Below, piece after piece: positions 15,024-33,877 of a stretch of 64,000 bases of DNA (position 1 is its first letter; each line of letters starts with the position of its first letter). The notes under the pieces are model-generated. The model did no database searches. It saw nothing but the letters and a program-made list of their open reading frames with translations, and was not told the origin of the DNA. Source of the stretch: Geobacteraceae bacterium (GTDB taxonomy: Bacteria > Desulfobacterota > Desulfuromonadia > Geobacterales > DSM-12255); assembly GCA_013377075.1 (NCBI GenBank), contig JACABD010000004.1, positions 1 through 64,000 on the forward strand, in the 5' to 3' direction. The position numbers and the translations under genes were made by a program.

Positions 15024-18000
15024 TTGAAGCGTCTAATTATTTTATCTCGTCTGATTCCATTACTGCTTATCTGCCCTCTGATTTTAGCAACTTACGGCAC
15101 TCTTCATGCTGCTGCACAGTGTTATGACTGTCACGGCAGCAAGAGCGGGCAAGACTATCGTCCTCTTGATGACGCCTTCAGAAACAGATCTTCAGGCGGC
15201 TTTCAAGGCAACCATCGAACCCATCTGCAGTCTTCTGCACGGGCAGCAGATTGTGCGCCCTGCCACCCCGGGAGTTCAGGCTACAACTCCTCGCACCGAA
15301 ACGGAGTCATAGAACTTTCAAACAGGATCAACTCCTCTCCTCTGGCAGCCGGCTATAGAAGCGGCATGACAGCCATCCCACAGACTACTACCCCTGCTTT
15401 AGGTAACTGCAGCAATGTCAACTGTCACTTTGAATCAGATACCCTGACATGGGGGAGCCTACCTCTGTCCAGGAATTCATGCTCAAGTTGTCACCAAACG
15501 CCGCCAACCGATGGAGCTCACGGCAAGAAGCATGGCCTTTACTATGGCACTGATCAGGCTAGCTGTACAAAATGCCATCCCGACCATCAGTCAAATCTGG
15601 ACCATGCGTTAGAGTCCGGCAAACGGCCACTCAATGTCCAGTTCAGCGGGACTAACATGCAAGGCCGCTACACAAGCGGCAGCACAGGCTATCCAAATTA
15701 TCTGCCCAGTCAGAATCCTGCGCGAAACGGAACCTGCACCGCCATCTACTGCCATAGTGACGGTCGTGGCGGCCCGCCGACCATAGCGCCGAGATGGTCA
15801 GACCCCAACAGTACAAAGTGTTTCTCCTGCCACAAAGGTGCTTCCGGCGACAGCACCCAGGCCAACTGTGTCTCAATCCAGGGGGCCTGGAGCAGTGCCC
15901 GTAACATCTGTACTCCTGACGTCACCATGTCCAGCAACGGCCACCATCGCCTGGTCGGGCCGCAATGGATCAGGAAATACCCTTGCACCTATTGCCATAA
16001 CCAGTCAGTTGCCGAAGTTTTCGATGCAAACGGAAAGATTACCGGAGATGGCGGAATCCGCTTTGTAAATTTTTCGACAAGGCATGTAAACGGTACTGTA
16101 AATGTGGCAATCGCCTCACAGTGGAACGTAGTGGGTCTGCCTCCGGCAAGCTTTAACAGCACAACAAAAGCATGCACAAACCTCTACTGCCACAGCGACG
16201 GCACGGCAATTCCTGAAGATATCAGACAGATAGGCTGGTCTGAGAAGACGGACTGCAACTCCTGTCACGGCCATCCACGCGGAACCTGCAACACAGTTTT
16301 GTGTCACGACGGCAGAACCGACAGCAATGGCAAAACCTGGGCAGTATTAACAGGCTGGCCCGCAGGGAGTGAGTGGATGGGGGCCATGCCGATGTTCCTC
16401 AATGAGGGACAGGGGACAGCTCATGCAAACTCCCATGCACGCCATATCCAGACCAATATGACGTGCGATAACTGCCATGCGAAGACCGTTGTCAATGGCA
16501 CATGTACAGTCTGTCACACTACCGGTATTCCAAGCGGTACAATGTCCGAAGTTGCCCATGTAAATCCGGAAAAACATGTTAACAAAAGGAAAGATGTCGA
16601 TTTCAAGGATGGCGGAACCTATGACGAAAACACCAAAAAGTGCAGCAGTACCGCCTGCCATATCGGTGTAGATCCGGTTTGGGGAGGATCGGTCAACACT
16701 ATCATAATCTGCATCTCATGCCATAAGACGACAACCGCAACCGGAGGGGATGTTGACAGCTACGGTTTTGCTGCCAATACGACCCGGGCAAAAATCAACC
16801 TTGATGAATGGTCATTCAGCGGCCATGGTCGCTATTCATCGGCGGCTCTAACCGGAAAATATCCGGTGTCAGGCAATCCGGCAGCAGGGTTTCCCATCGA
16901 CAACCCGTGTTGGTACTGTCATGACAACAGCGTCCTTCATAATGACGCAACAAACCCGTTCCGCCTGCGCCAGCATGACCAGTTCAGCAAGCGTTTTGAC
17001 AAGGAGTGCGTATACTGCCACATGCAGGGCTACGACAGCGAATGTCTCGGCTGCCACAACTCGGTTGAATCACTATCTCCGCAGCTTAAATCATCAATCG
17101 TGATTACAAAACATAGCGGCGTCACCTATCTCAGTGGCTGTACTGTTTCAAGCTGCCACGACAGCGACGCAAAGATGCATAAATCAGGTGTTACAAGTTT
17201 CTGGACAGCCGATCAGAAGACCGATGTAAAAAACCAGTATGTCATGATGGGGGTCTGCCTTAAATGCCATGACGATGACTCTGCCAACCAGTGTAATGGC
17301 TGCCATGATTACAGTCTTCCCAAATATCAGCTTGGTTTTGATCCTGGCACCGGCTTCAGAAAACCGAAAAAAGCCCGCGCCTCTTCCGCTCACTTCGGCA
17401 TGAAGCATTACGCCGGATTTCTTTCATCAGGCGGCTGGGAGCTGGATTCAAACGGCCATACAAAGGGAATCTGGCGCGGCGGCAAGTTCTGCTGGGACTG
17501 CCATGATCCCCATGGCGACAGCAACATCTACATGATCCACGACAAGGTCGCTACAACCACTGACGGCAAGTTCGGCATTCCGCTGACCAGGGCAACCGTC
17601 GTCTTCACCAAAAAGCAGAGCGGCTCAGATTATGCCAACTCTGATCCGTTCAAGCCGTATAACGGCATCTGCAATGTCTGCCATACTGCTGCCAGCAGGC
17701 ACTATACGGCGACCAGAGGTGACGGGCATAACTCCGGCAGAATCTGTACTGACTGCCATCAGCACCGTTTTGCTGACAGCCATGCCAATGGCAATCCGTG
17801 CAACAGCTGCCACGCCAACAGCAAGCCAGTGCCGAAACATGCGGCATTCGGCCTGCCCCAGGACTGCACCAAATGCCACAGCGGCATCATCAACAAGCGC
17901 ATGGATATCATGGGGCAGTTTAACGGCAACTCCCACCATATTCAGGGTGTAGCCGTAACAAACAAGCAGTGCTACAAATGTCACTGGGAGGCCACGGCAG

Positions 18001-19601
18001 AGGGCTTTATCGATCGCAAATATCATGAGGGATATGACTATAAAGTCTATACTTCTGTACCGAATGCAAAGGTCGACCTGGTAATCTGGCAGGCTGGCGT
18101 GCGGCCTACTTTTTACAGTTCGACTACTGCAGTGCAGTTTCTTGCTAAAAATGTTGGTACATCCGGAGAACGGGCAGAGGCGGCCAAGGTCACCAACCAC
18201 TGCCTTGGTTGTCACAGCGACCAGAACAACAACACCGATCCTTTTGGTGACTGCAAAACCCCGCGTCAGTATGCCTGGGACTTCCAGAGCGTTGCTGCAC
18301 GCTATTCCCAGATCGGCACAACCCAGTGGGGCAAGGTCAATTCAACTGCATACCCAAATGCCAACCAGAAAGACACTGTCACCAAGGCATTCTCTGCCCA
18401 CGGCAATGCTGCCAATAACCAGGGTGGCTACAGCCTGACAAGCGGCACAGACAGCAGCATCCCGAATCTGCGCGGCAGCCAGAACGTCCAGTGCTACGAC
18501 TGCCACAGCTCCCACGGCTCCAAGGTGACCGGCGTGACATCAAGCTATATGACTTTCAACGGCACCTACAACGGTGCAAACCTGAAAGAGACCCAGGCAG
18601 GCAAGGGTGGTTACGGCATGAGCTACAGAGCCTCTGCCAACACGACTTCAGGGGCAATCAACCCGTATAATGCCGGAGCCGGCCAGTGCTTCGACTGCCA
18701 TAACAGCCAGAACAGCGGCACAACACCATGGGGATACCAGTCGACATTCGGTGCAACCGCACCGGTAAGCGGCTACAACGACTCGCTCCGCTTCGGTGTC
18801 ACTGGCAGCAGTCCGAGCCAGTACGCCTACAAGCGGAACAGACCGGCTGTCGGCGGCCATATGAAAGCCGAGAGTTTCCTCAACAGGACTACCTCTGCAC
18901 AAAACAAGATAAACGGGCTCTGCACACCCTGCCATGATCCACACGGTGTCAGCCCGACACTGGGGAGCAAGCAGGCCTATGCAATTCCGCTATTGAAAGG
19001 GACCTGGATGACCTCGCCATATCGTGAAGATGCGGCAATGCCTGTCAATGGCGGCTACGTAGGCCCGCCAAATCTCGACCCTGCACCACTGGCGTTCACG
19101 GATCAGCGTTCATTCGATGGCAACAGGATTTCCCAGAGCGACAGCCAGTTTGCCGGGCTATGCCTGCGCTGTCACAACAAAAGCACTCTTACAAAAGACG
19201 CCTGCTCCAACCCTGCATTCAATAACAACAGCTCCCAATGCAAGTCCAGCGGCGCAACCTGGCGACCAAACTCCTGGAAGAGCAAGGACAGGGTTCACGA
19301 ATCGGTCAGGGACTGGAAAAGTTCAAACAATAAAATCCAGCACTCCTACACCTGCTCAAAGTGTCATGCACCCCACTCCGGCAATATGCCGCGGCTGCTG
19401 GTAACGAACTGCTTTGACTGGAAGCACCGTGGTCAGCAACAGTCGGGCGGGTCGTACCCGGCAGATGGAAACAGCAATTATTGGGATCCAGGCGGGCCGG
19501 ATGGTTCAGAAAACGGCCCGGGTAGTGGCGGGGGTCAGATGCCCGACTGCCATCCCGGAGCCTGGCCTGACAACTCATGGAACGTGGTGACGCCATGGTA
19601 A
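15024..19601 (+). CDS. Giant multihaem c-type cytochrome (33 CXnCH motifs)
   Basis: 1,525 residues from a TTG start with GGAGG seven bases upstream. A Sec signal peptide (about residues 1-30) is followed by 33 haem-type motifs by my reading: 27 CX2CH and 6 CX4CH. All six CX4CH motifs (for example CSNVNCH, CTAIYCH, CTNLYCH) lie in the N-terminal half; motifs in the second half are all CX2CH. This mixed pattern is the Geobacter CX4CH/CX2CH family. Such proteins are secreted or surface-attached and take part in electron transfer across or outside the outer membrane. Whether CX4CH sites carry haem is not certain. The last 100 residues are Gly/Ser/Asn-rich with no further CXnCH motif. A giant propeller/FN3 gene starts 44 bases after the stop, probably the same operon. 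Confidence 0.93.
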   Translation: MKRLIILSRLIPLLLICPLILATYGTLHAAAQCYDCHGSKSGQDYRPLDDAFRNRSSGGFQGNHRTHLQSSARAADCAPCHPGSSGYNSSHRNGVIELSNRINSSPLAAGYRSGMTAIPQTTTPALGNCSNVNCHFESDTLTWGSLPLSRNSCSSCHQTPPTDGAHGKKHGLYYGTDQASCTKCHPDHQSNLDHALESGKRPLNVQFSGTNMQGRYTSGSTGYPNYLPSQNPARNGTCTAIYCHSDGRGGPPTIAPRWSDPNSTKCFSCHKGASGDSTQANCVSIQGAWSSARNICTPDVTMSSNGHHRLVGPQWIRKYPCTYCHNQSVAEVFDANGKITGDGGIRFVNFSTRHVNGTVNVAIASQWNVVGLPPASFNSTTKACTNLYCHSDGTAIPEDIRQIGWSEKTDCNSCHGHPRGTCNTVLCHDGRTDSNGKTWAVLTGWPAGSEWMGAMPMFLNEGQGTAHANSHARHIQTNMTCDNCHAKTVVNGTCTVCHTTGIPSGTMSEVAHVNPEKHVNKRKDVDFKDGGTYDENTKKCSSTACHIGVDPVWGGSVNTIIICISCHKTTTATGGDVDSYGFAANTTRAKINLDEWSFSGHGRYSSAALTGKYPVSGNPAAGFPIDNPCWYCHDNSVLHNDATNPFRLRQHDQFSKRFDKECVYCHMQGYDSECLGCHNSVESLSPQLKSSIVITKHSGVTYLSGCTVSSCHDSDAKMHKSGVTSFWTADQKTDVKNQYVMMGVCLKCHDDDSANQCNGCHDYSLPKYQLGFDPGTGFRKPKKARASSAHFGMKHYAGFLSSGGWELDSNGHTKGIWRGGKFCWDCHDPHGDSNIYMIHDKVATTTDGKFGIPLTRATVVFTKKQSGSDYANSDPFKPYNGICNVCHTAASRHYTATRGDGHNSGRICTDCHQHRFADSHANGNPCNSCHANSKPVPKHAAFGLPQDCTKCHSGIINKRMDIMGQFNGNSHHIQGVAVTNKQCYKCHWEATAEGFIDRKYHEGYDYKVYTSVPNAKVDLVIWQAGVRPTFYSSTTAVQFLAKNVGTSGERAEAAKVTNHCLGCHSDQNNNTDPFGDCKTPRQYAWDFQSVAARYSQIGTTQWGKVNSTAYPNANQKDTVTKAFSAHGNAANNQGGYSLTSGTDSSIPNLRGSQNVQCYDCHSSHGSKVTGVTSSYMTFNGTYNGANLKETQAGKGGYGMSYRASANTTSGAINPYNAGAGQCFDCHNSQNSGTTPWGYQSTFGATAPVSGYNDSLRFGVTGSSPSQYAYKRNRPAVGGHMKAESFLNRTTSAQNKINGLCTPCHDPHGVSPTLGSKQAYAIPLLKGTWMTSPYREDAAMPVNGGYVGPPNLDPAPLAFTDQRSFDGNRISQSDSQFAGLCLRCHNKSTLTKDACSNPAFNNNSSQCKSSGATWRPNSWKSKDRVHESVRDWKSSNNKIQHSYTCSKCHAPHSGNMPRLLVTNCFDWKHRGQQQSGGSYPADGNSNYWDPGGPDGSENGPGSGGGQMPDCHPGAWPDNSWNVVTPW

Positions 19602-19645
19602 AAACATATGGAATATCCGAATTAATGAAAAGCAGGGGAGTTCTA

Positions 19646-22600
19646 ATGATACAGAGAACCTCTAAATTCAGAAGATTAGCTGACAGGCTACTCCTTTTTG
19701 TCATGGCGCTACTGTTTGTGGCCGGAACCGTGCAACAGACCTTTGCCGCCGGAGGCGCCATCATCTGGCAGGCTGGCGACGGCCAGAGCGGCAAACAGAT
19801 AGCCAAGTCCTCGGCAAGCGACAGCCAGGGTAGCGTAATCGTCACCGGCTATCAGAACCTTGGCAGCTATGACAGTTATATGACCACCAAATTCAAGGCA
19901 GACGGCAGCGGCGTGGCATGGCGTGCCACCTTTGCCCGGGCAAACGGTAACTGCCAGGCAACAGCCGTCGCAATTGACAGTAGCGACAACGTCATAGTCA
20001 CAGGCTATGCCTGGAACGGCGTCAACAACGACATCCAGACCATCAAATACAGCGGCAGTGACGGCACAGTCCTCTGGCAGCACACCTGGAACGGCGCTGC
20101 CAACGGCAATGACCGGGCCGCTGCAGTTGCAATCGACAATCTCAACAACATCTATGTCGGCGGCTCAACGCAAGGGACTTCCGGCGCCGATGACCTCGTC
20201 ATCATCAAATACCTCGCCACCGGCCCCTTAAACAACCTCCCTGCCTGGCAGGTCAGCTACAACGGCCCGGCAAACGGCATGGACAATCTCTATGACCTGA
20301 CCGCCGGAGCAAGCGGCATAGCCGCCACCGGCTGGTCCTATAACGGCAGCAGCTTTGACATGCTCACCATCAAATACGACCTCTCCGGCAACAAGCTCTG
20401 GGAGAGCCGCTACCAGTCAGTTGGCGGCGCAATGGGTAAAAAAGTAAAAATGGATGCCAGCGGCAACGTCATAGTCACCGGCTATGCAGCAGATGCCGTA
20501 TCAAAAAACATCTACACCGCCAAATACAAAAGCAGTGACGGCAGCAAACTCTGGGAGAGAACCTACTCAAGCTCCGATGGCAGCGACGAAGAGGCCAATG
20601 ACCTCTACGTTGACACAACCGGTGAAGTCTTTCTAACCGGCTACACCTTCCTCAACGCCGGACTGAACAAAGTCTTCTACACCGCCAGATACAGCGGCAC
20701 CGCAGGAGCTCTCCTCTGGGATGCCACCTCCAATTCCGGCGGAGATGCCGACGAAGCAGTCGCCATCACCGTTGATGGCAGCGGCGACGTCTATGTAACC
20801 GGCTACACAGTCTCCGGCGGCAACTACGACTTCCTCACCATCAAATACCAGCGTGACAGCGGCCTTGAGAGATGGTTATTCCCCTTTAACGGCGCAGCCA
20901 GCTTGAATGACCGTCCCGTCGGCATCAGCATGTCGCCAATCGGAGAAGTCCTTCTTGGTGGCTGGTCCGAAGCCGGAAACAACAATCCTGACTTTTACGC
21001 CCTCAAGCTCGACCCTGAACAGCTGCCAAGACCGACCGCCCTTGTTGCCACCACCCTTTCCAACAGCAGCATCCAGCTGACCTGGGCAGATAACTCCAGC
21101 AGTGAAGAGAGCTTCAGCGTAGAGCGCAAACTTGGCGAAAACGGAAGTTACAGCACCGTTGCCACCCTTGACCCGGGCAGCACCAGCTACAGCGACATCG
21201 GCCTCAGCATCAACAACACCTACTACTACCGGGTAAGGGCCTACAACACAGCCCAGGGGTTCTCCCACTACAGCAACGAAGCCCACGCCCTCACCGCCAC
21301 CTACAACAACATCGCCTTTGCCAGAACAGCCATCTACACCAGCCCCGACAACCTTAATGACACCCCGACCGCCCTTGCAATGGGCCCGGACGAGAACCCG
21401 GTAATGACCGGCTACAGCCAGACCGCAGCATTTGGCAACAACTACCTCACCCTGAAACTGAACCGGTCCGACCTGAGCACAATCTGGAACGCCCAGTACG
21501 ACGACCCTGACAGCGGCACTGACGAAGCTCTCTGCATGGTAGTGGACTCAAACAACAGCACCATGGTCTCCGGCCATGCGAACCTTTACTACAGCCTTGT
21601 CGGCAAGAACATCCCCTCCATTCTCACCCTGAAATACCCGTCATACGGCCCACCGGAGAGCTGGACCAAGCAGTATAACGGTCCAGGAGGGATAGATGAC
21701 CGCCCCAGAGCCGTAGCTGCCTCAATTGACTCAGCAAACAGTGTCGCAGTTGTCGGCTATGGCCTGAACAGCGCTGAAAACATCGACATCTACGTCCTCA
21801 AATACACAAAAACAGGCGCACTTGCCTGGGCTGCACCCCCCTTTGACGGTCCCGGACATGGTCATGACATCCCCAGTGGCGCCGCATTCGGCCCGGACGG
21901 CAGCATCTATGTAACCGGTTACAGCGAAACAGCAACCGCTAGCGGCAGATACAACCTCTTCACCGCAAAATACAACGGCAGCAGCGGCGCCCTCATCTGG
22001 TCAGATCTTTACACCCCCCAAGTAAACGGCGACAACCGCAGCAACGCAATCGTCGTTGATGCCGCAGGCGACGTCTACATCACCGGCCGCGCCACAAATG
22101 CATCGGGCAACAGCGACATATACACCATCAAATACAGCGGCAGCAGCAGTATCCCCCAGCGTCTCTGGGAACACTCATTTGACGGCACAGGCCACGGCGA
22201 TGACAACGGTGTCAGCATCAAGTTAGACCCCTATGACGGCGCACTAGTCGTTGCCGGCACAACCCTGACCGGCAGCGGTAACAACGACTTCGCCGCCCTG
22301 CGCTACAGTCCGGCCGGAGATCCCCTCTGGCAAAAAACAGTACTTCGCCCCAATAACGACGACACCCTCACCGGCATGGCAATAGATCCATCCGGCACCA
22401 TCTACCTCGCCGGAGACACCAGTAGCGGCATGAGCGTCGATATCCTTTCCGTCATACTTGACCCTACAGGAAACATCCTTGCCTACTCGACTTTTGATGG
22501 CAGCGGTCACAGTTTCGATCAGGCAATCGGCGTTGTTACCGACAGCAAAGGCGAAGCATTCATCGGCGGCTCAACAGTGAAGGCAGATGGCAACTCCAGC

Positions 22601-25600
22601 TATATCATCCTGAAACAGTCCAGCAGCAACTACATCATCCCGATCCCCACCCCCTTTGCCGCAACCCAGCAGGCCGACTACAGCAAGATCAGCCTTGCCT
22701 GGAGCAACAACCTGCCAGGCAGCAGCTTCCGGATCGAAAGGACCCCCGGGCCTGTCAGCTCAGGCAGCACCTGGACTCTCATCAACACAGCAGGCCCCGG
22801 AAGTACCGGCTACACAGACAACGGCCTCAACCCCGGGACAAACTACTGCTACCGGATAGAAGCGTTCAGCGGCAGCTTCTTCTCCAAACAGCTCATCAGC
22901 TGCGCCACCACAACCCTCCCCCAGCCCGTGATGTCATTAAGCCTTGTTTCGGCAACAGCAATCGACATCAGCTGGACAAATATTCCCGGCAACAGCGGCT
23001 ACAAACTTGAGCGGAGCACCGACAACATCACCTGGAGCCAGCTTGGCGCCAACCTCCCGGTCGATACAACCATCTTTCATGACAGCAGCCTTACTGCAGG
23101 CCAGGTCTACTACTACCGGGTCAGCACCCTGAGTGCATTCGGCCCCTCCCTGACAACAGTCCAGACAGCCCCCGTCCTTACAAGCGCAACAGCTGTCTCC
23201 AGTAGTGAAATAGATCTCGCCTGGCCATCTGTCAGCGGTGCAACAGCCTATCTTCTTGAGAACAGCATTGACAATGCAACCTGGAACCAGATTGCCTCAC
23301 AGCTGACAACCACCTATCAAAACCCCCTACTTCCACCGGGAGTAACCTACTACTACCGTCTCAAAGTCGTTACCAATGCAGGCACATCAATACCCAGCCT
23401 CGTCCGTTCGGCCCAGAGCTGGCCAGTGGCACCTGTTCTGAATTCGGTGACAGCCATAGCACCCAATCAGGTCAGCCTCTCCTGGGCCGGCAGCGCCGGT
23501 GCAACCGGCTACACAATCTGGGAGTCAACCTGCAGCAATAGCTGGGTCAGCTTTACCGGCTACAACAACGCCCAGTCAGTCTGGGTTCCGGTCGCTGTTT
23601 CACCCAATAACTGTGACCTTTATCCCCAGTACATAAGCTGGAGTAATCCAACTCAGGTTGGAACAGTCAGTGGGCATGATTCAACTGTATTTACCCGAAA
23701 CGGTGCACCGATCGGAGCCCGCAGCAGCTACTACGTCGTGGCAACAGCATCTTCAAGCGCTTCACCCGCCAGCAATACCCTCAAAACATGGACCCCTCCC
23801 CAGGCTACAACCTTGAGCGCAACCGTCACCGACACCTCAGTGAATGTGAGCTGGTCCACTGCGAACGTCACCACCAGTAATATCCTTGAAAGGAGCCTGA
23901 ACGGAACCAACGGCTGGACAACCATCTACACCAGCACCGGCAATGTCTATCCGACCAGTTACGGCTATAACGACACAGGGCGCTCACCTGCAACCACATA
24001 CTACTACCGGGTAACAAGCAGCGGAGTGGTTACACCCCAGGCTCTCAGCACGGTTCTGCCAGCGACCACCCTCTCAGGCGGCCCGGCAATAACGACACTT
24101 TCCCTTGCCGGTAACCAGATAACAGTAAACTGGAGCAACGTTGCCGGTAACCTTGGCTATAATGTCAAAAGATTGCACAGCTCAGAAGCCACGCCAACCT
24201 ACTGGTATGATGACGGCTATGTTTCAACCATGGTCGCCCAGGACGCAGTCTCTTTTATTGACAGCACCATTTCAGCCGGAAACGCCTACAAATATCAGGT
24301 GCAGGTGAAGTTTCCCGGCCCAGCGTTATCCGGTTGGGGGAGCGATTCAGGGCTCTGGAAGCGGATGGCGCCTGCCACTCCGACAAACGCATACACAAAC
24401 GGAATGTACCTTTCCTGGTACCAGAGCCCCGGCGCCACACTCTACACGATTCAGTACATGCAGCCGACAGGAAGCGACTGCTCCAGCGGAACCGCATGGA
24501 GTCAACTGACAACAACAACTTCGACCTCATACAATCCTGGCCTGTCAAATACAGGCTCATGGTGCTTCAAAGTTGCAGCCAGCAATGAATCAGGAGCTTC
24601 CAATTTCGGCACAGCCGCCATCTACCTGCCTCCGCCGACAACATTTACCCTCGGCACATCCACAGTCTCAACCATCCCCCTCTCCTGGAGCACTGTCCCC
24701 GGCAACAACGGCTACCAGATCGAGCGCTACCCATCCTACTATGGCTGCTGGAACCCCTATCCGATCTGGGGGACCTGCGGCCCGATCTGGAGCACGGTAA
24801 ACAACACCATAGCAGGAGCTACCAGTTATACCGATAGCGGTCTGGTCTCCAACACCGCCTACCAGTACCGGATCTCCACCAGAGTTCAAAATGGCGGCAG
24901 TAGTGGCCTGTCAGTCTCCAAACTGAGCTCTCCCACAAGCAAATCAACCCTGGCCCTTGGGAATATGACCCTGACCGGACTGACGGTGGACTCTTCATCC
25001 CAGATCACGGTTATCTGGTCCGATGTGACAGGCAACAACGGGTACAAACTCCAGCGAAGCCCTGATAACTATACCTGGACAGATGTTGTTACCACCGATC
25101 CTGGGGTTACAAGCTACAGCAACTCAGGACTGAGCAGCGGCACAAAATATTACTATCGCGGGCAGGCAAAGGACGGTGCAGGTACCTTCACCGCATTCAG
25201 CAATGTACTGAACGCCACAACACCCCTGCCGACCCCGGCCATAGCATCAGCAACCACCGCATCTGAATCCGCAATCAATCTATCCTGGCAGGTAGTTACC
25301 GGTGCAACAAATTACAAACTCTTCCGCTCCATAGGCGCAAGCGGCCCATGGACCCAGGTCACGAACCAGGCAGTTGCCTACTCAAGCAAATACTGCGGCC
25401 TCTACTCAACACCAAGCATGGATTGCAGCACACTCGTCCCGGTATTTACCAACTACGCCGATACCGGTCTGACGGAAAACACCAACTACTGCTACCAGGT
25501 CAAAGCCTGGAACTCGGTCATTGGTGACTCATCTCCAAGCAGCACCGTATGTGCTAACACCCTCTCCGTTGGCGGGCCGGTTCTAAGCACAGTCACAGCA

Positions 25601-25900
25601 TCACCGGTCACACGCTCGATTCAGCTTGGCTGGACATACAACCCTGCGACCTGCACCCCGATCCCATGCGCACCGGTACCGGACGGTTTCGAGATCTGGC
25701 GACTGGCCATGAATGGAGAGTGGGCGCTGCTGGCAACAACGGCGAATGTAACTACATTTACAGACAAGACGAATATAGAGCCGCTTAAAAACTACAGCTA
25801 CAAGGTGCGGGCGTTCAAGGGAACGGCAACTTCCAACTACAGTAATGTTCTGGGGAGTACGACGGCGTCATTCAATCCGAATGCCGGAACCTGCCCGTAA
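19646..25900 (+). CDS. Giant secreted protein: two beta-propeller arrays plus about twelve fibronectin type III domains
   Basis: 2,084 residues from the ATG at 19646, chosen because GGGGAG lies seven bases upstream and the product then starts with a normal signal peptide (QTFAAGG cut region); an in-frame ATG at 19577 overlaps the cytochrome gene. Residues about 30-455 hold eight repeats of the form VIVTGY..(D)I.TIKY (SBBP-type propeller). One FN3 domain follows, then a second set of eight such repeats (to about residue 1000), and then about eleven more FN3 domains, recognisable by I.LSW..V.G..GYKLERS and TYYYRV. No membrane anchor, PEP-CTERM or LPXTG-like sorting signal is visible. It likely acts as an extracellular scaffold or adhesin; its position after the cytochrome suggests a shared surface structure. 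Codon use strongly favours GGC and AAC. Confidence 0.88.
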   Translation: MIQRTSKFRRLADRLLLFVMALLFVAGTVQQTFAAGGAIIWQAGDGQSGKQIAKSSASDSQGSVIVTGYQNLGSYDSYMTTKFKADGSGVAWRATFARANGNCQATAVAIDSSDNVIVTGYAWNGVNNDIQTIKYSGSDGTVLWQHTWNGAANGNDRAAAVAIDNLNNIYVGGSTQGTSGADDLVIIKYLATGPLNNLPAWQVSYNGPANGMDNLYDLTAGASGIAATGWSYNGSSFDMLTIKYDLSGNKLWESRYQSVGGAMGKKVKMDASGNVIVTGYAADAVSKNIYTAKYKSSDGSKLWERTYSSSDGSDEEANDLYVDTTGEVFLTGYTFLNAGLNKVFYTARYSGTAGALLWDATSNSGGDADEAVAITVDGSGDVYVTGYTVSGGNYDFLTIKYQRDSGLERWLFPFNGAASLNDRPVGISMSPIGEVLLGGWSEAGNNNPDFYALKLDPEQLPRPTALVATTLSNSSIQLTWADNSSSEESFSVERKLGENGSYSTVATLDPGSTSYSDIGLSINNTYYYRVRAYNTAQGFSHYSNEAHALTATYNNIAFARTAIYTSPDNLNDTPTALAMGPDENPVMTGYSQTAAFGNNYLTLKLNRSDLSTIWNAQYDDPDSGTDEALCMVVDSNNSTMVSGHANLYYSLVGKNIPSILTLKYPSYGPPESWTKQYNGPGGIDDRPRAVAASIDSANSVAVVGYGLNSAENIDIYVLKYTKTGALAWAAPPFDGPGHGHDIPSGAAFGPDGSIYVTGYSETATASGRYNLFTAKYNGSSGALIWSDLYTPQVNGDNRSNAIVVDAAGDVYITGRATNASGNSDIYTIKYSGSSSIPQRLWEHSFDGTGHGDDNGVSIKLDPYDGALVVAGTTLTGSGNNDFAALRYSPAGDPLWQKTVLRPNNDDTLTGMAIDPSGTIYLAGDTSSGMSVDILSVILDPTGNILAYSTFDGSGHSFDQAIGVVTDSKGEAFIGGSTVKADGNSSYIILKQSSSNYIIPIPTPFAATQQADYSKISLAWSNNLPGSSFRIERTPGPVSSGSTWTLINTAGPGSTGYTDNGLNPGTNYCYRIEAFSGSFFSKQLISCATTTLPQPVMSLSLVSATAIDISWTNIPGNSGYKLERSTDNITWSQLGANLPVDTTIFHDSSLTAGQVYYYRVSTLSAFGPSLTTVQTAPVLTSATAVSSSEIDLAWPSVSGATAYLLENSIDNATWNQIASQLTTTYQNPLLPPGVTYYYRLKVVTNAGTSIPSLVRSAQSWPVAPVLNSVTAIAPNQVSLSWAGSAGATGYTIWESTCSNSWVSFTGYNNAQSVWVPVAVSPNNCDLYPQYISWSNPTQVGTVSGHDSTVFTRNGAPIGARSSYYVVATASSSASPASNTLKTWTPPQATTLSATVTDTSVNVSWSTANVTTSNILERSLNGTNGWTTIYTSTGNVYPTSYGYNDTGRSPATTYYYRVTSSGVVTPQALSTVLPATTLSGGPAITTLSLAGNQITVNWSNVAGNLGYNVKRLHSSEATPTYWYDDGYVSTMVAQDAVSFIDSTISAGNAYKYQVQVKFPGPALSGWGSDSGLWKRMAPATPTNAYTNGMYLSWYQSPGATLYTIQYMQPTGSDCSSGTAWSQLTTTTSTSYNPGLSNTGSWCFKVAASNESGASNFGTAAIYLPPPTTFTLGTSTVSTIPLSWSTVPGNNGYQIERYPSYYGCWNPYPIWGTCGPIWSTVNNTIAGATSYTDSGLVSNTAYQYRISTRVQNGGSSGLSVSKLSSPTSKSTLALGNMTLTGLTVDSSSQITVIWSDVTGNNGYKLQRSPDNYTWTDVVTTDPGVTSYSNSGLSSGTKYYYRGQAKDGAGTFTAFSNVLNATTPLPTPAIASATTASESAINLSWQVVTGATNYKLFRSIGASGPWTQVTNQAVAYSSKYCGLYSTPSMDCSTLVPVFTNYADTGLTENTNYCYQVKAWNSVIGDSSPSSTVCANTLSVGGPVLSTVTASPVTRSIQLGWTYNPATCTPIPCAPVPDGFEIWRLAMNGEWALLATTANVTTFTDKTNIEPLKNYSYKVRAFKGTATSNYSNVLGSTTASFNPNAGTCP

Positions 25901-26044: not shown

Positions 26045-26770
26045 GATAGCCACACGACCGACGAATTGCTTGATAAACTGATGAAGGACTACAAGAAACC
26101 CGTGGACTTGATTGTCGAAAACGGGTTTCTAAAACAATTCACTAAACGCCTTCTAAAACAGGCAATGCAGGCTGAGATGACTGATCATCGTGGCTATGAG
26201 AAACATGCCCCCGCAGGTAAAAGAGTGGCAACTCCCGTAACGGCAGGTATCAGAAAACCGTCAAGGGTGAGTTTGACAAACTCTCCGTATCCGTCCTCAA
26301 AGACCGGAACGCTACCTTTGATCCGGTGATTCTTCCCAAAAGAGAAAGCTGCTTTACCGGTTTCAATGACAAGATCATTTCCATGTATGCCCGATTGTCT
26401 ACCTCGATGCAGTCTGGAACAAGGTGCGACATAACGGCCACGTCATAATCAAGATCGCCTATCTAGCTATTGCCTTCACCATGGAAGGGGTCAAGGAAGT
26501 CCTTGGCATGTGGGCAGCCGAGACAGAAGTCGCAAAGTTTTGGCTTCAGGTTGTCTCTGAGCTGAAAAACCGTGGTGTGAAGGACATCTTCATCGCCGGT
26601 ATGGACGGCCTCAAGGACTTTCCAGAGGCAATAGAGACGGTCTTTCCAAACACTCAAATTCAACTCTGCATCGTGCACATAGTACGGCACAGCCTTAATT
26701 ATGTATCCTGGAAGCAGCGCAAAGAAGTTACCGCTGATCTCAAAACGATATATGACTGGAAGTCAGCATT
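26045..26770 (+). pseudogene. IS256-family (Mutator) transposase remnant
   Basis: The piece TTDELLDKLMKDYKKP..LKQAMQAEMTDHRGYEKHAP matches the IS256-family N-terminus. The reading frame is lost near 26222 and continues in another frame (NSRNGRYQKTVKG, then FNDKIISMYA). At about 26390 about 60-70 residues are missing: SMYA is joined directly to PIVYLDAVWNK in a third frame. The catalytic core then runs to FIAGMDGLKDFPEAI and LCIVHIVRHSLNYVSWKQRKEV but stops soon after DLKTIYDWK, so the third catalytic residue (Glu) and the C-terminus are absent. TGTGTAAATGGCC at 25999 may be a left-end remnant; I found no right end. It cannot move by itself. Confidence 0.88.
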
Positions 26771-26891
26771 TAATCAATTCAGCATCAGATTTGAGGATAG
26801 ATTGATAAAATACTGAAAGCTGATATTATGTCAATTAAAGCGCTATAATGTCAATGCAGTCACATGTAAAATCACAGGGATAAGAGGTCAT

Positions 26892-30902: not shown

Positions 30903-31706
30903 ATGGCACGTGCAACTCTCTGCCCTCGCTGCAGACAACTGATAGGAAGTGAAGAAACCGTCTGCTCATGGTGTGGCACATCGCGTTCTGCTTCATTCTG
31001 GAAAGTCCTCAGTTGGTCAAAAAGCATCATGGCAACTGATGGGCTCATAAACGCGATCATAACCCTCAATATTATTTACTATGGGATTTCGATTTTAATC
31101 TCCCCACCTGTTGGACTATTATCCCCAAGCCATTACAGCATGATGATCCTCGGGGCTACTGGCACAACCCCCATAAATAACTATGGCAATTACTGGTCAC
31201 TGCTCACCGCCAACTATCTTCATGGCGGCATTATTCACTTAATTTTCAACCTGATGGCTTTTCGACAGATCGCCCCTTTGGCAATTAACGAGTACGGTGC
31301 ATCGAGAGTCATTACAATTTACACCGTGGGGGGCGCCTTTGGCTTTCTGGTGTCTTATTTTGCGGGAGTACCCTTTACCATAGGCGCTTCTGCAGCAATA
31401 TGCAGCCTTGTAGGGGCGCTTCTCTATTACGGCAAGAGTAGAGGTGGATCCTATGGAAGTTCCATTTATAACGAACTAAAAGGATGGGTAATCAGTATTT
31501 TCATTTTCGGACTAGTGTTCCCCGGAATCAATAACTGGGGTCATGGTGGTGGACTCATCGGCGGGATGCTGCTTGGCATGGTCCTGGGATATTCAGAAAA
31601 AAGACGGGAAAAGATCTACGATCATGCTCTTGCTGTTATATGCGTTGTGGCTACAATCGCATCTCTTGTTTTTGCGCTTTCAGGCATAATTTTCAGACAA
31701 GCTTAA
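30903..31706 (+). CDS. Rhomboid-family intramembrane serine protease with N-terminal zinc ribbon
   Basis: 267 residues. The N-terminus is a short zinc ribbon: CPRC (Cys7, Cys10) and CSWC (Cys21, Cys24). Then follow about six to seven membrane helices with the rhomboid signatures HGGIIHLIFN (His and Asn of the second helix), GASAAI with the nucleophile Ser163, and NWGHGGG with the catalytic His214. All catalytic residues are present, so it should cleave transmembrane substrates within the inner membrane. The ribbon may bind a substrate or regulator. ATG 30903 has CCGGAGCTAATAAATCT upstream. Monocistronic; the substrate is unknown. Confidence 0.9.
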   Translation: MARATLCPRCRQLIGSEETVCSWCGTSRSASFWKVLSWSKSIMATDGLINAIITLNIIYYGISILISPPVGLLSPSHYSMMILGATGTTPINNYGNYWSLLTANYLHGGIIHLIFNLMAFRQIAPLAINEYGASRVITIYTVGGAFGFLVSYFAGVPFTIGASAAICSLVGALLYYGKSRGGSYGSSIYNELKGWVISIFIFGLVFPGINNWGHGGGLIGGMLLGMVLGYSEKRREKIYDHALAVICVVATIASLVFALSGIIFRQA

Positions 31707-32271
31707 GTATTTCCCCTAAACGCGCACCAGTAAATTGATCATTTTCATACAAAAAGTGCGAGGTTTAGAAGATGCTTCTTGTTAACCGAATAATCTGTTG
31801 TGTCACATCGTCAAATCTCTTTGTGTGGAGAAAGATGGTCGACCTAAACAGGTCTTCCTTTCTAATAATGAGTGTTGATTTCTGTAGAATTGCCTTGAAC
31901 TTCTGAAGAGTTATCCACTTTTTGCCAGTTGATTTCCTCTAGTCCACAGCTCCACACTTAATTAAATACTGCATACACCTAATATTTAGTATTGACACGC
32001 AATTACAGCAACTTAGCGGCCATGCTTAAAAAGCGTGCAAAGCGTAAAAACTGCTATGTATACGTTACATTTTCAAAACTAATCCACAGGATAACGGCAC
32101 TTATCCACAGCCTCCTGTAGATAACTTCAACTTTAATTATTGATTACAAATTATATTTTGCTTCTGTGTGTAATTGACCATCAAGACCCACCTCCTTAGG
32201 TATCAAGAAAATGGATTGTAAAGCTAATTTGGTGTCACCCCCATGAGTCTCAGCCATGGCAACCTTATTTT
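31707..32271. other. Intergenic region with a cluster of DnaA-box-like sites
   Basis: No gene is supported here. Between 31824 and 32124 there are five nine-base sites equal to, or one base from, TTATCCACA: 31824-31832 (minus), 31911-31919 (plus), 32080-32088 (plus), 32101-32109 (plus, exact) and 32116-32124 (minus). A weaker site is at 31940. AT-rich sequence follows at 32127-32165. This is the make-up of a replication-initiation or DnaA-titration region, but no dnaA, dnaN, parAB or rep gene is near. Confidence 0.45.
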
Positions 32272-33572: not shown

Positions 33573-33657
33573 TGGTGCGAGAGAGGAGACTTGAACTCCT
33601 ATACCCTTCGGTGCCAGATCCTAAGTCTGGTGCGTCTGCCAATTCCGCCACTCTCGC
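33573..33657 (-). tRNA. tRNA-Leu (anticodon UAG)
   Basis: An 85-base cloverleaf including an encoded CCA end. The acceptor stem GCGAGAG pairs with CTCTCGC, with discriminator A. The anticodon stem CCAGA/TCTGG holds the loop CTTAGGA, anticodon TAG. The long variable arm typical of leucine tRNAs and a GTTCAAGTC T-loop are present. A promoter-like sequence lies upstream and an intrinsic terminator downstream. Confidence 0.95.
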
Positions 33658-33696
33658 GTCTTGTTTCTACAACTGTTTCACAAAATCTGAACGGAA

Positions 33697-33726
33697 CTTA
33701 TACCACACGAAGCGGACTTGTTGCAA
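33697..33726 (-). promoter_or_regulatory. Probable promoter of tRNA-Leu
   Basis: On the minus strand TTGCAA (33726-33721) and TATAAG (33702-33697) are separated by 18 bases, ending 40 bases before the mature tRNA 5' end. Confidence 0.5.
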
Positions 33727-33782
33727 GGATCAATTTTGCTTCTGACAATATTACTTCCCCCTTATCAAATGATCCTTTCCCC

Positions 33783-33812
33783 TTGACATAAACCGCTGTT
33801 TTCGTGTAATTT
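33783..33812 (+). promoter_or_regulatory. Possible promoter of glyQS
   Basis: A perfect -35 TTGACA (33783-33788) is followed by TGTAAT (16-base spacing) or TAATTT (18-base spacing). It lies 66-90 bases before the glyQ start. Confidence 0.45.
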
Positions 33813-33877
33813 TGCCGCCTAACTCATTGGATTTTTTCATTTTCAATACAGTCCACTACTAATCCGGAGGTATTTTC

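Follow-up and report, generated by a model that had tools for sequence, protein, structure and literature searches.

The window analyzed here, a stretch of 64,000 nucleotides from a Geobacteraceae bacterium (order Geobacterales, class Desulfuromonadia, phylum Desulfobacterota), raises the question of what role is played by a tight group of DnaA boxes lying in non-coding DNA. An earlier note, made from the sequence alone, had reported five such sites with no replication gene nearby, and had proposed the trace of an integrated replicon, a datA-like site or an unusual chromosomal origin as explanations. The five sites, each within one mismatch of TTATCCACA, are present as described, at 31824 (-), 31911 (+), 32080 (+), 32101 (+, exact) and 32116 (-), and the region surrounding them is both non-coding and AT-rich (GC 0.385). 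The answer favored below is that the group belongs to a dispersed, derived copy of an element that resembles the DnaA-reactivating sites (DARS) of E. coli.

The box cluster and its surroundings

The 64-kb window as a whole holds 20 box-like sites against a shuffle mean of 12.4, and at least 20 were obtained in 5 of 100 shuffles; hence, it is the clustering of the sites, as opposed to their total, that is remarkable. Across the genome, 877 sites within one mismatch of TTATCCACA were counted in 3,706,357 bases, or about 0.07 per 300 bp. In a control set composed of the window and 20 stretches of 20 kb from the same genome (464 kb with 109 sites in all), a 300-bp interval with at least three sites was seen at two places only, namely at the cluster itself (five) and in the gap between dnaA and dnaN (three, G000:C35:29095), and the density in 126 AT-rich 300-bp control intervals (GC of 0.42 or less) averaged 0.10 sites, with a maximum of three. 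The number of clusters of five expected per genome, computed by arithmetic from the genome and control rates, is well under 0.01. A chance cluster, for which only the mild excess of sites over the window as a whole can be adduced, may thus be set aside with near certainty, given that 464 kb contain no further cluster except the one at dnaA-dnaN and that other genera carry homologous elements of identical span.

The features of the locus are listed below. The R1 and mazG forms they refer to are described in the following sections, and box numbers follow the DARS nomenclature.

26424-26816 (+): Mutator-family transposase remnant, left of the accessory segment (PF00872, E 1.2e-33, positions 173-286 of 379)
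31824-31832 (-): DnaA-box-like site TTCTCCACA, one mismatch, outside the aligned family core
31911-31919 (+): DnaA-box-like site TTATCCACT within GAGTTATCCACTT, with similarly placed counterparts in some of the other copies
31982-32129 (+): dispersed-element core, about 150 bp (matched by model R1 in the search of the genome with 92.6 bits and E 4.3e-26, the window sequence being among the 14 used to build R1)
31990-32014 (+): Block 1, TATTGACAC..ATTACAG, where conservation within the dispersed form is highest and which may be a bent or IHF-type site
32023-32039 (+): Block 2, TGCTTAAAAAGCGTGCA, counterpart of the mazG-form palindrome TGCCTAAAAAATAGGCA
32080-32088 (+): DnaA box TAATCCACA, followed by the exact box at a distance of 21 bp
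32101-32109 (+): DnaA box TTATCCACA without mismatch, corresponding to DARS box II
32116-32124 (-): DnaA box TTATCTACA in opposed orientation, corresponding to DARS box I and separated from box II by 15 bp, where 14 is usual
33573-33657 (-): tRNA-Leu between the element and glyQ

The Mutator-family remnant bears out the description of the surroundings as an accessory zone with an IS remnant. On one side of the cluster lies a rhomboid-family gene (30903-31706) and on the other a reading frame of 148 aa for which Pfam gave no match, and the tRNA was the sole match of an Rfam search at the locus. The segment holding the cluster is missing before glyQ in all nine relatives examined, where 2.3 to 5.1 kb were read and neither the element nor the rhomboid gene, a kinase gene, the 148-aa frame or any tRNA was found. 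The right-hand limit of the acquired segment can be placed at window 33573-33840, given that these relatives also lack, before glyQ, the tRNA-Leu and the sequence reaching to about 33.84 kb. To the left of the accessory segment, window positions 15024-25900 hold two very large frames, identified by eye as a 1525-aa CxxCH-rich protein and a 2107-aa repeat protein.

A family of dispersed copies, some of them in mobile units

A DNA search of 13 genomes of the family recovered the window region at two places in another genus. The three copies shared one exact layout, in which 72 bp separate TTGACAC..ATTACAG from a DnaA box that is itself followed, at 21 bp, by another, and a scan for this exact pattern across one genome per species (84,980 species) returned 16 loci. 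Thirteen of these, all with a span of 97 nt, belong to records named Geobacteraceae, Geobacter, Desulfuromonadales or Deltaproteobacteria; the three loci with another span (Flavobacterium, Apibacter and an uncultured RUG bacterium) were left out of alignment A1, as were two repeats (L031, L034). A pattern scan of viral contigs gave five loci, all read as chance because the rest of the element was missing, and plasmid and phage records yielded one weak match each, covering 20% and 10% of the query, which were dismissed.

A sequence model of the dispersed form, R1, built from 14 copies, matched 123 of the 141 genomes of the order and 148 of the 277 genomes of the class in all, the matches outside the order being weak only. 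A sensitive R1 search found matches in 18 of 19 selected genomes, with one to six in each, mazG form included. The element, of about 150 bp, occurs across the order in one to six instances per genome, mostly standing alone. No dispersed-type match was found in some genomes of the order (for example, G039), which indicates that the dispersed copies are not essential. From 88 R1 matches, 72 distinct dispersed copies were retained after dropping nine repeats of the same place and seven weak or overlapping matches. Among the 51 copies of this set that could be scored, 49 present a pair of facing boxes at 14 bp; the 15 bp of the window copy is a value unique to it. The upstream box lies at 21 bp in 39 of the 72, and the IHF consensus occurs with at most one mismatch, at a constant offset, in 24 of the 57 copies having TTGACAC. 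The genome of the window harbors a second strong dispersed copy at C116:4742-4883.

The genes neighboring the dispersed copies vary, as do their directions. Eight of the 72 copies, however, lie within a unit encoded on one strand, in the order tyrosine integrase (PF00589), RadC (PF04002), element, usually a 115-aa protein, and an ArdC-type protein (PF08401 with PF18818), with Pfam assignments made on the set of L094. Five further copies are accompanied by a partial set, and 59, including the window copy, show no trace of the unit in flanks that for many copies amount to about 1.5 kb. No replication gene was recognized in the units that were read, and the DNA up to 12 kb from the window copy yielded no remnant of an integrase, RadC or ArdC. 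As observed in L094 (2989-6910), L101, L102, L107, L115 and L117, the recurrent integrative unit of the Geobacterales comprises an integrase, a 109-aa protein, RadC, the element, the 115-aa protein, which lacks a Pfam match, and ArdC, followed by a variable cargo, examples of which were named by reading as a serine recombinase, a response regulator and an XRE regulator.

The form of the element beside mazG

Weak R1 matches converge on one chromosomal place, between mazG and either ogt or murJ; gene names at this locus were assigned by reading of the proteins and then by homology searches. Thirteen aligned copies from this place present up to four DnaA boxes, the TGCCTAAAAAATAGGCA palindrome (block 2, alignment A3 columns 34-50), which is kept beside the boxes, and an IHF-like motif. 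Using the consensus TAAnnnnTTGATW (PMC10380432, as given in an excerpt), the motif was found with at most one mismatch in a single alignment column in 13 of 13 copies, the chance expectation being about 0.002 per position. Six genes of the IHF/HU type are present in the genome of the window, which carries its own mazG form at C54:6271-6407.

A second model, R2, was built from the 13 copies picked at this place, and the position of mazG was not used in searching with it. R2 matched 253 of the 277 genomes of the class, and 179 of the 187 with a completeness of 90% or more and a contamination of 5% or less. In 50 loci that were read (the 30 best and 20 chosen), mazG adjoins the element in 48, the exceptions being a shortened contig and a locus where a different gene occupies this position; mazG was present in all 13 loci from outside the order. 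In a sample of the phylum, R2 matched 165 of 395 genomes. Twenty loci chosen from outside the class comprise five with mazG, element and murJ together, one with mazG 1.3 kb away and 14 with neither gene close by, and 14 of the 20 present the facing pair at 14 bp. The mazG-linked form is vertically inherited and ancestral-looking within the family.

The layout of this form is nearly invariant. Among the 49 copies that could be scored (one of the 50 was not), all have the facing boxes at 14 bp and the third box at 11 bp, 44 have a fourth box at 23 bp when up to four mismatches are allowed, 38 have the IHF motif within one mismatch, and in 37 its distance is 109 bp, although the spacing counts are partly circular, since the copies were found with a model that penalizes gaps. 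The neighboring gene ends converge at most of the mazG loci read by eye, and therefore the site is not a promoter there. A promoter of neighboring genes was dropped as an explanation of the element on this ground and on that of the variable neighbors and directions of the dispersed copies.

Comparison with known DnaA-binding systems and alternative explanations

Sites that recharge DnaA have been worked out in E. coli. In the excerpts of the literature used here, the DARS core is defined by three boxes with equal spacing at both sites and with box I opposite to boxes II and III (PMC5742627), and the face-to-face placement of boxes I and II is given as characteristic and essential (PMC10380432). 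DARS1 (between bioD and uvrB) and DARS2 (before mutH) of E. coli K-12 were located by eye from the deletion-primer text of PMC4585315, and both present box spacings of 14 and 12. The mazG form resembles them in being non-coding, in having three boxes, the first of which is oriented against the other two (II and III) in all 49 scoreable copies, and in its I-II distance of 14 bp; like DARS2, it has an IHF-type site at a distance, as judged by motif match. It departs from both in the second spacing, which is off by one (11 versus 12), in its fourth box at 23 bp, in the additional palindrome and in its location beside mazG. In addition, its distance to dnaA varied between 0.16 and 0.49 of the genome among 13 genomes, whereas DARS positions are described as conserved within the species E. 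coli (passages of PMC4585315), and the element family differs from the E. coli sites in having dispersed paralogues in mobile units. A search of 103 kb with R2 picked out DARS1 (E 0.0096) with its three boxes aligned and left DARS2 and datA unmatched. The window copy is matched by R2 in 103 kb (E 1.6e-7) as well as by R1. Its box orientation fits that of DARS, but its spacings are 15 and 21, and it therefore falls outside the strict DARS class. Moreover, its box I carries one mismatch and its IHF-like stretch two, as determined by reading.

The explanation that we favor, with a probability of roughly 0.6, is that the class Desulfuromonadia possesses a DARS-like, DnaA-reactivating element with dispersed paralogues, and that the cluster in the window is a dispersed and derived copy of it. 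In the most likely mechanism, ADP-DnaA would dock on the opposed boxes, IHF would bend the DNA of the element and the facing DnaA molecules would lose their ADP, such that recharged ATP-DnaA could depart and start replication. Mobile elements would have scattered the dispersed copies, the window copy among them, and these may supply extra DnaA binding, be it for titration or for reactivation. The best reading of the window copy itself is that of a derived paralogue of the putative DARS-like family, which may be decaying or acting as a DnaA sink only.

Explanations invoking an origin of replication fare less well. AT-rich DNA does adjoin the DnaA boxes, but an unusual chromosomal origin, as the earlier note had suggested, is exceedingly improbable. 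In the same genome, dnaA is found on contig C35 (G000:C35:28072), preceded by a region of ribosomal-protein/RNase P type and followed by dnaN (names other than dnaA by reading), and TTATCAACA boxes lie both before and after it. The GC skew of two complete relatives changes sign near dnaA and on the opposite side, and not at copies of the element: in G050, 8 of 10 sampled stretches are positive from 0.06 to 2.40 Mb, 9 of 9 are negative from 2.66 to 4.60 Mb and the last (4.99 Mb) is about zero, and in G125, 6 of 10 are positive from 0.06 to 1.86 Mb and 8 of 10 negative from 2.06 to 3.76 Mb. The trace of an integrated replicon stands in part, in that some relatives carry the element within integrase-RadC-ArdC units and none of the 9 relatives examined has, before glyQ, the segment holding the window copy; the lack of unit remnants within 12 kb of the window copy, and of recognized replication genes in the units read, does not agree with it. 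In such a case, an integrative mobile element could, once excised, replicate from the dispersed form with the help of the DnaA and IHF of the host, and the window copy would be its last trace. The eight copies between RadC and ArdC with an adjoining tyrosine integrase, the five partial ones and the AT-rich DNA beside the boxes agree with this proposal, which we nonetheless regard as unlikely, because 59 of the 72 copies have no trace of a unit in flanks that for many span about 1.5 kb, because no replication protein was recognized in the units read and because the same architecture is fixed class-wide beside mazG, where the skew in two genomes excludes an origin.

If the boxes merely titrated DnaA, without nucleotide exchange, the element would be a sink of the datA or B. 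subtilis type. The boxes are clustered outside the origin in several copies per genome, the case for titration on the chromosome has been made in E. coli (PMC12371093) and B. subtilis and Streptomyces are described as having clusters that are analogous to datA and restrain initiation (PMC5742627), in both cases according to passages of these papers. Titration requires neither rigid spacing nor facing boxes, yet both are fixed here, and this leaves a pure sink an improbable explanation. The B. subtilis and Streptomyces clusters are not known to have an extended sequence or a rigid layout in common, and the conserved 140-bp architecture of the element sets it apart from them. A datA-like site comes closest of the three readings in the earlier note, inasmuch as the family consists of conserved, non-coding DnaA-box clusters outside oriC with an IHF-like motif. 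The essential boxes of datA, though, are described as sharing one direction with the IHF site between them (passages of PMC5742627), whereas the boxes here face each other, as in DARS, and the IHF-like site lies to one side of the array. The last two boxes could also pair into a hairpin, with DnaA boxes in its stem, and the element of the mobile units is flanked by the anti-restriction genes ArdC and RadC, as might be expected of a single-strand initiation site or a single-stranded promoter for DNA transfer. DnaA is able to act on single-strand hairpins. Covariation in the stem is nevertheless weak, with 38 C-G, 3 A-T and 7 mismatched pairs in the 48 of 72 dispersed copies presenting the pattern and a double change in one pair only, and the mazG form has the same layout with no transfer genes nearby; such a role is hence very unlikely. 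A structured RNA was dropped as well, with ten weak pairs and a double change in one of them.

If the preferred reading of a DARS-like element is correct, a mazG-linked site fixed throughout the class and present in some other classes of the phylum would make DNA-driven recharging of DnaA old and widespread, and the reuse of the site in mobile elements would be a new route by which acquired DNA touches host replication. The conservation of DARS2 is described, in passages of PMC5742627 and PMC4245941, for beta- or gamma-proteobacteria proximal to E. coli, and Fis is stated to be confined to E. coli-related gamma-proteobacteria (PMC4245941); a mazG-form DARS of the Desulfobacterota would thus lie far outside the groups of stated conservation, although DARS-like sequences are mentioned for many proteobacterial species (excerpt of PMC10380432). 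More speculatively, integrative elements of the Geobacterales may have captured a DARS-like site of their host, whose mazG form would be the DARS of the Desulfobacterota, and spread it, altering the charging or titration of host DnaA, with one dispersed copy in the window; we put this forward as a tentative and rather doubtful extension. In the open-licence part of PubMed Central, no report was found of a DnaA-reactivating site in Geobacter or Deltaproteobacteria, of a link between mazG, a DnaA box and an intergenic site, or of conserved DnaA-reactivating sites in alphaproteobacterial genomes. Curation of the genomes of G. metallireducens, G. bemidjiensis and P. carbinolicus has yielded hundreds of conserved intergenic features (PMC2700814, PMC2996986, PMC3543383); the multicopy intergenic sequences of these curated genomes, which are compared here by description and may overlap the element, are in the text passages of those papers not linked to DnaA. 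The mazG element provides a defined 140-bp target for deletion in Geobacter.

Some minor observations concern the placement of the copies. The 22% of the chromosome most distant from dnaA holds 11 of the 14 strong dispersed copies, a count that ignores kinship and covers the complete or near-complete genomes G025, G050, G046, G125, G045, G037, G030, G019 and G122. A role at the replication terminus or as dif was considered and dropped, since the mazG copies, unlike most of the strong dispersed ones, do not lie in this distant part, and the G. sulfurreducens dif printed in an excerpt of PMC2731167 is unlike the element when compared by eye. Dispersed copies also occur in pairs on the same contig (L124, L125, L126, L127), with 1.4 to 20 kb between the two and, in some pairs, inverted orientation. 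Lastly, the palindrome TGCCTAAAAAATAGGCA of the mazG form may be bound by some protein.
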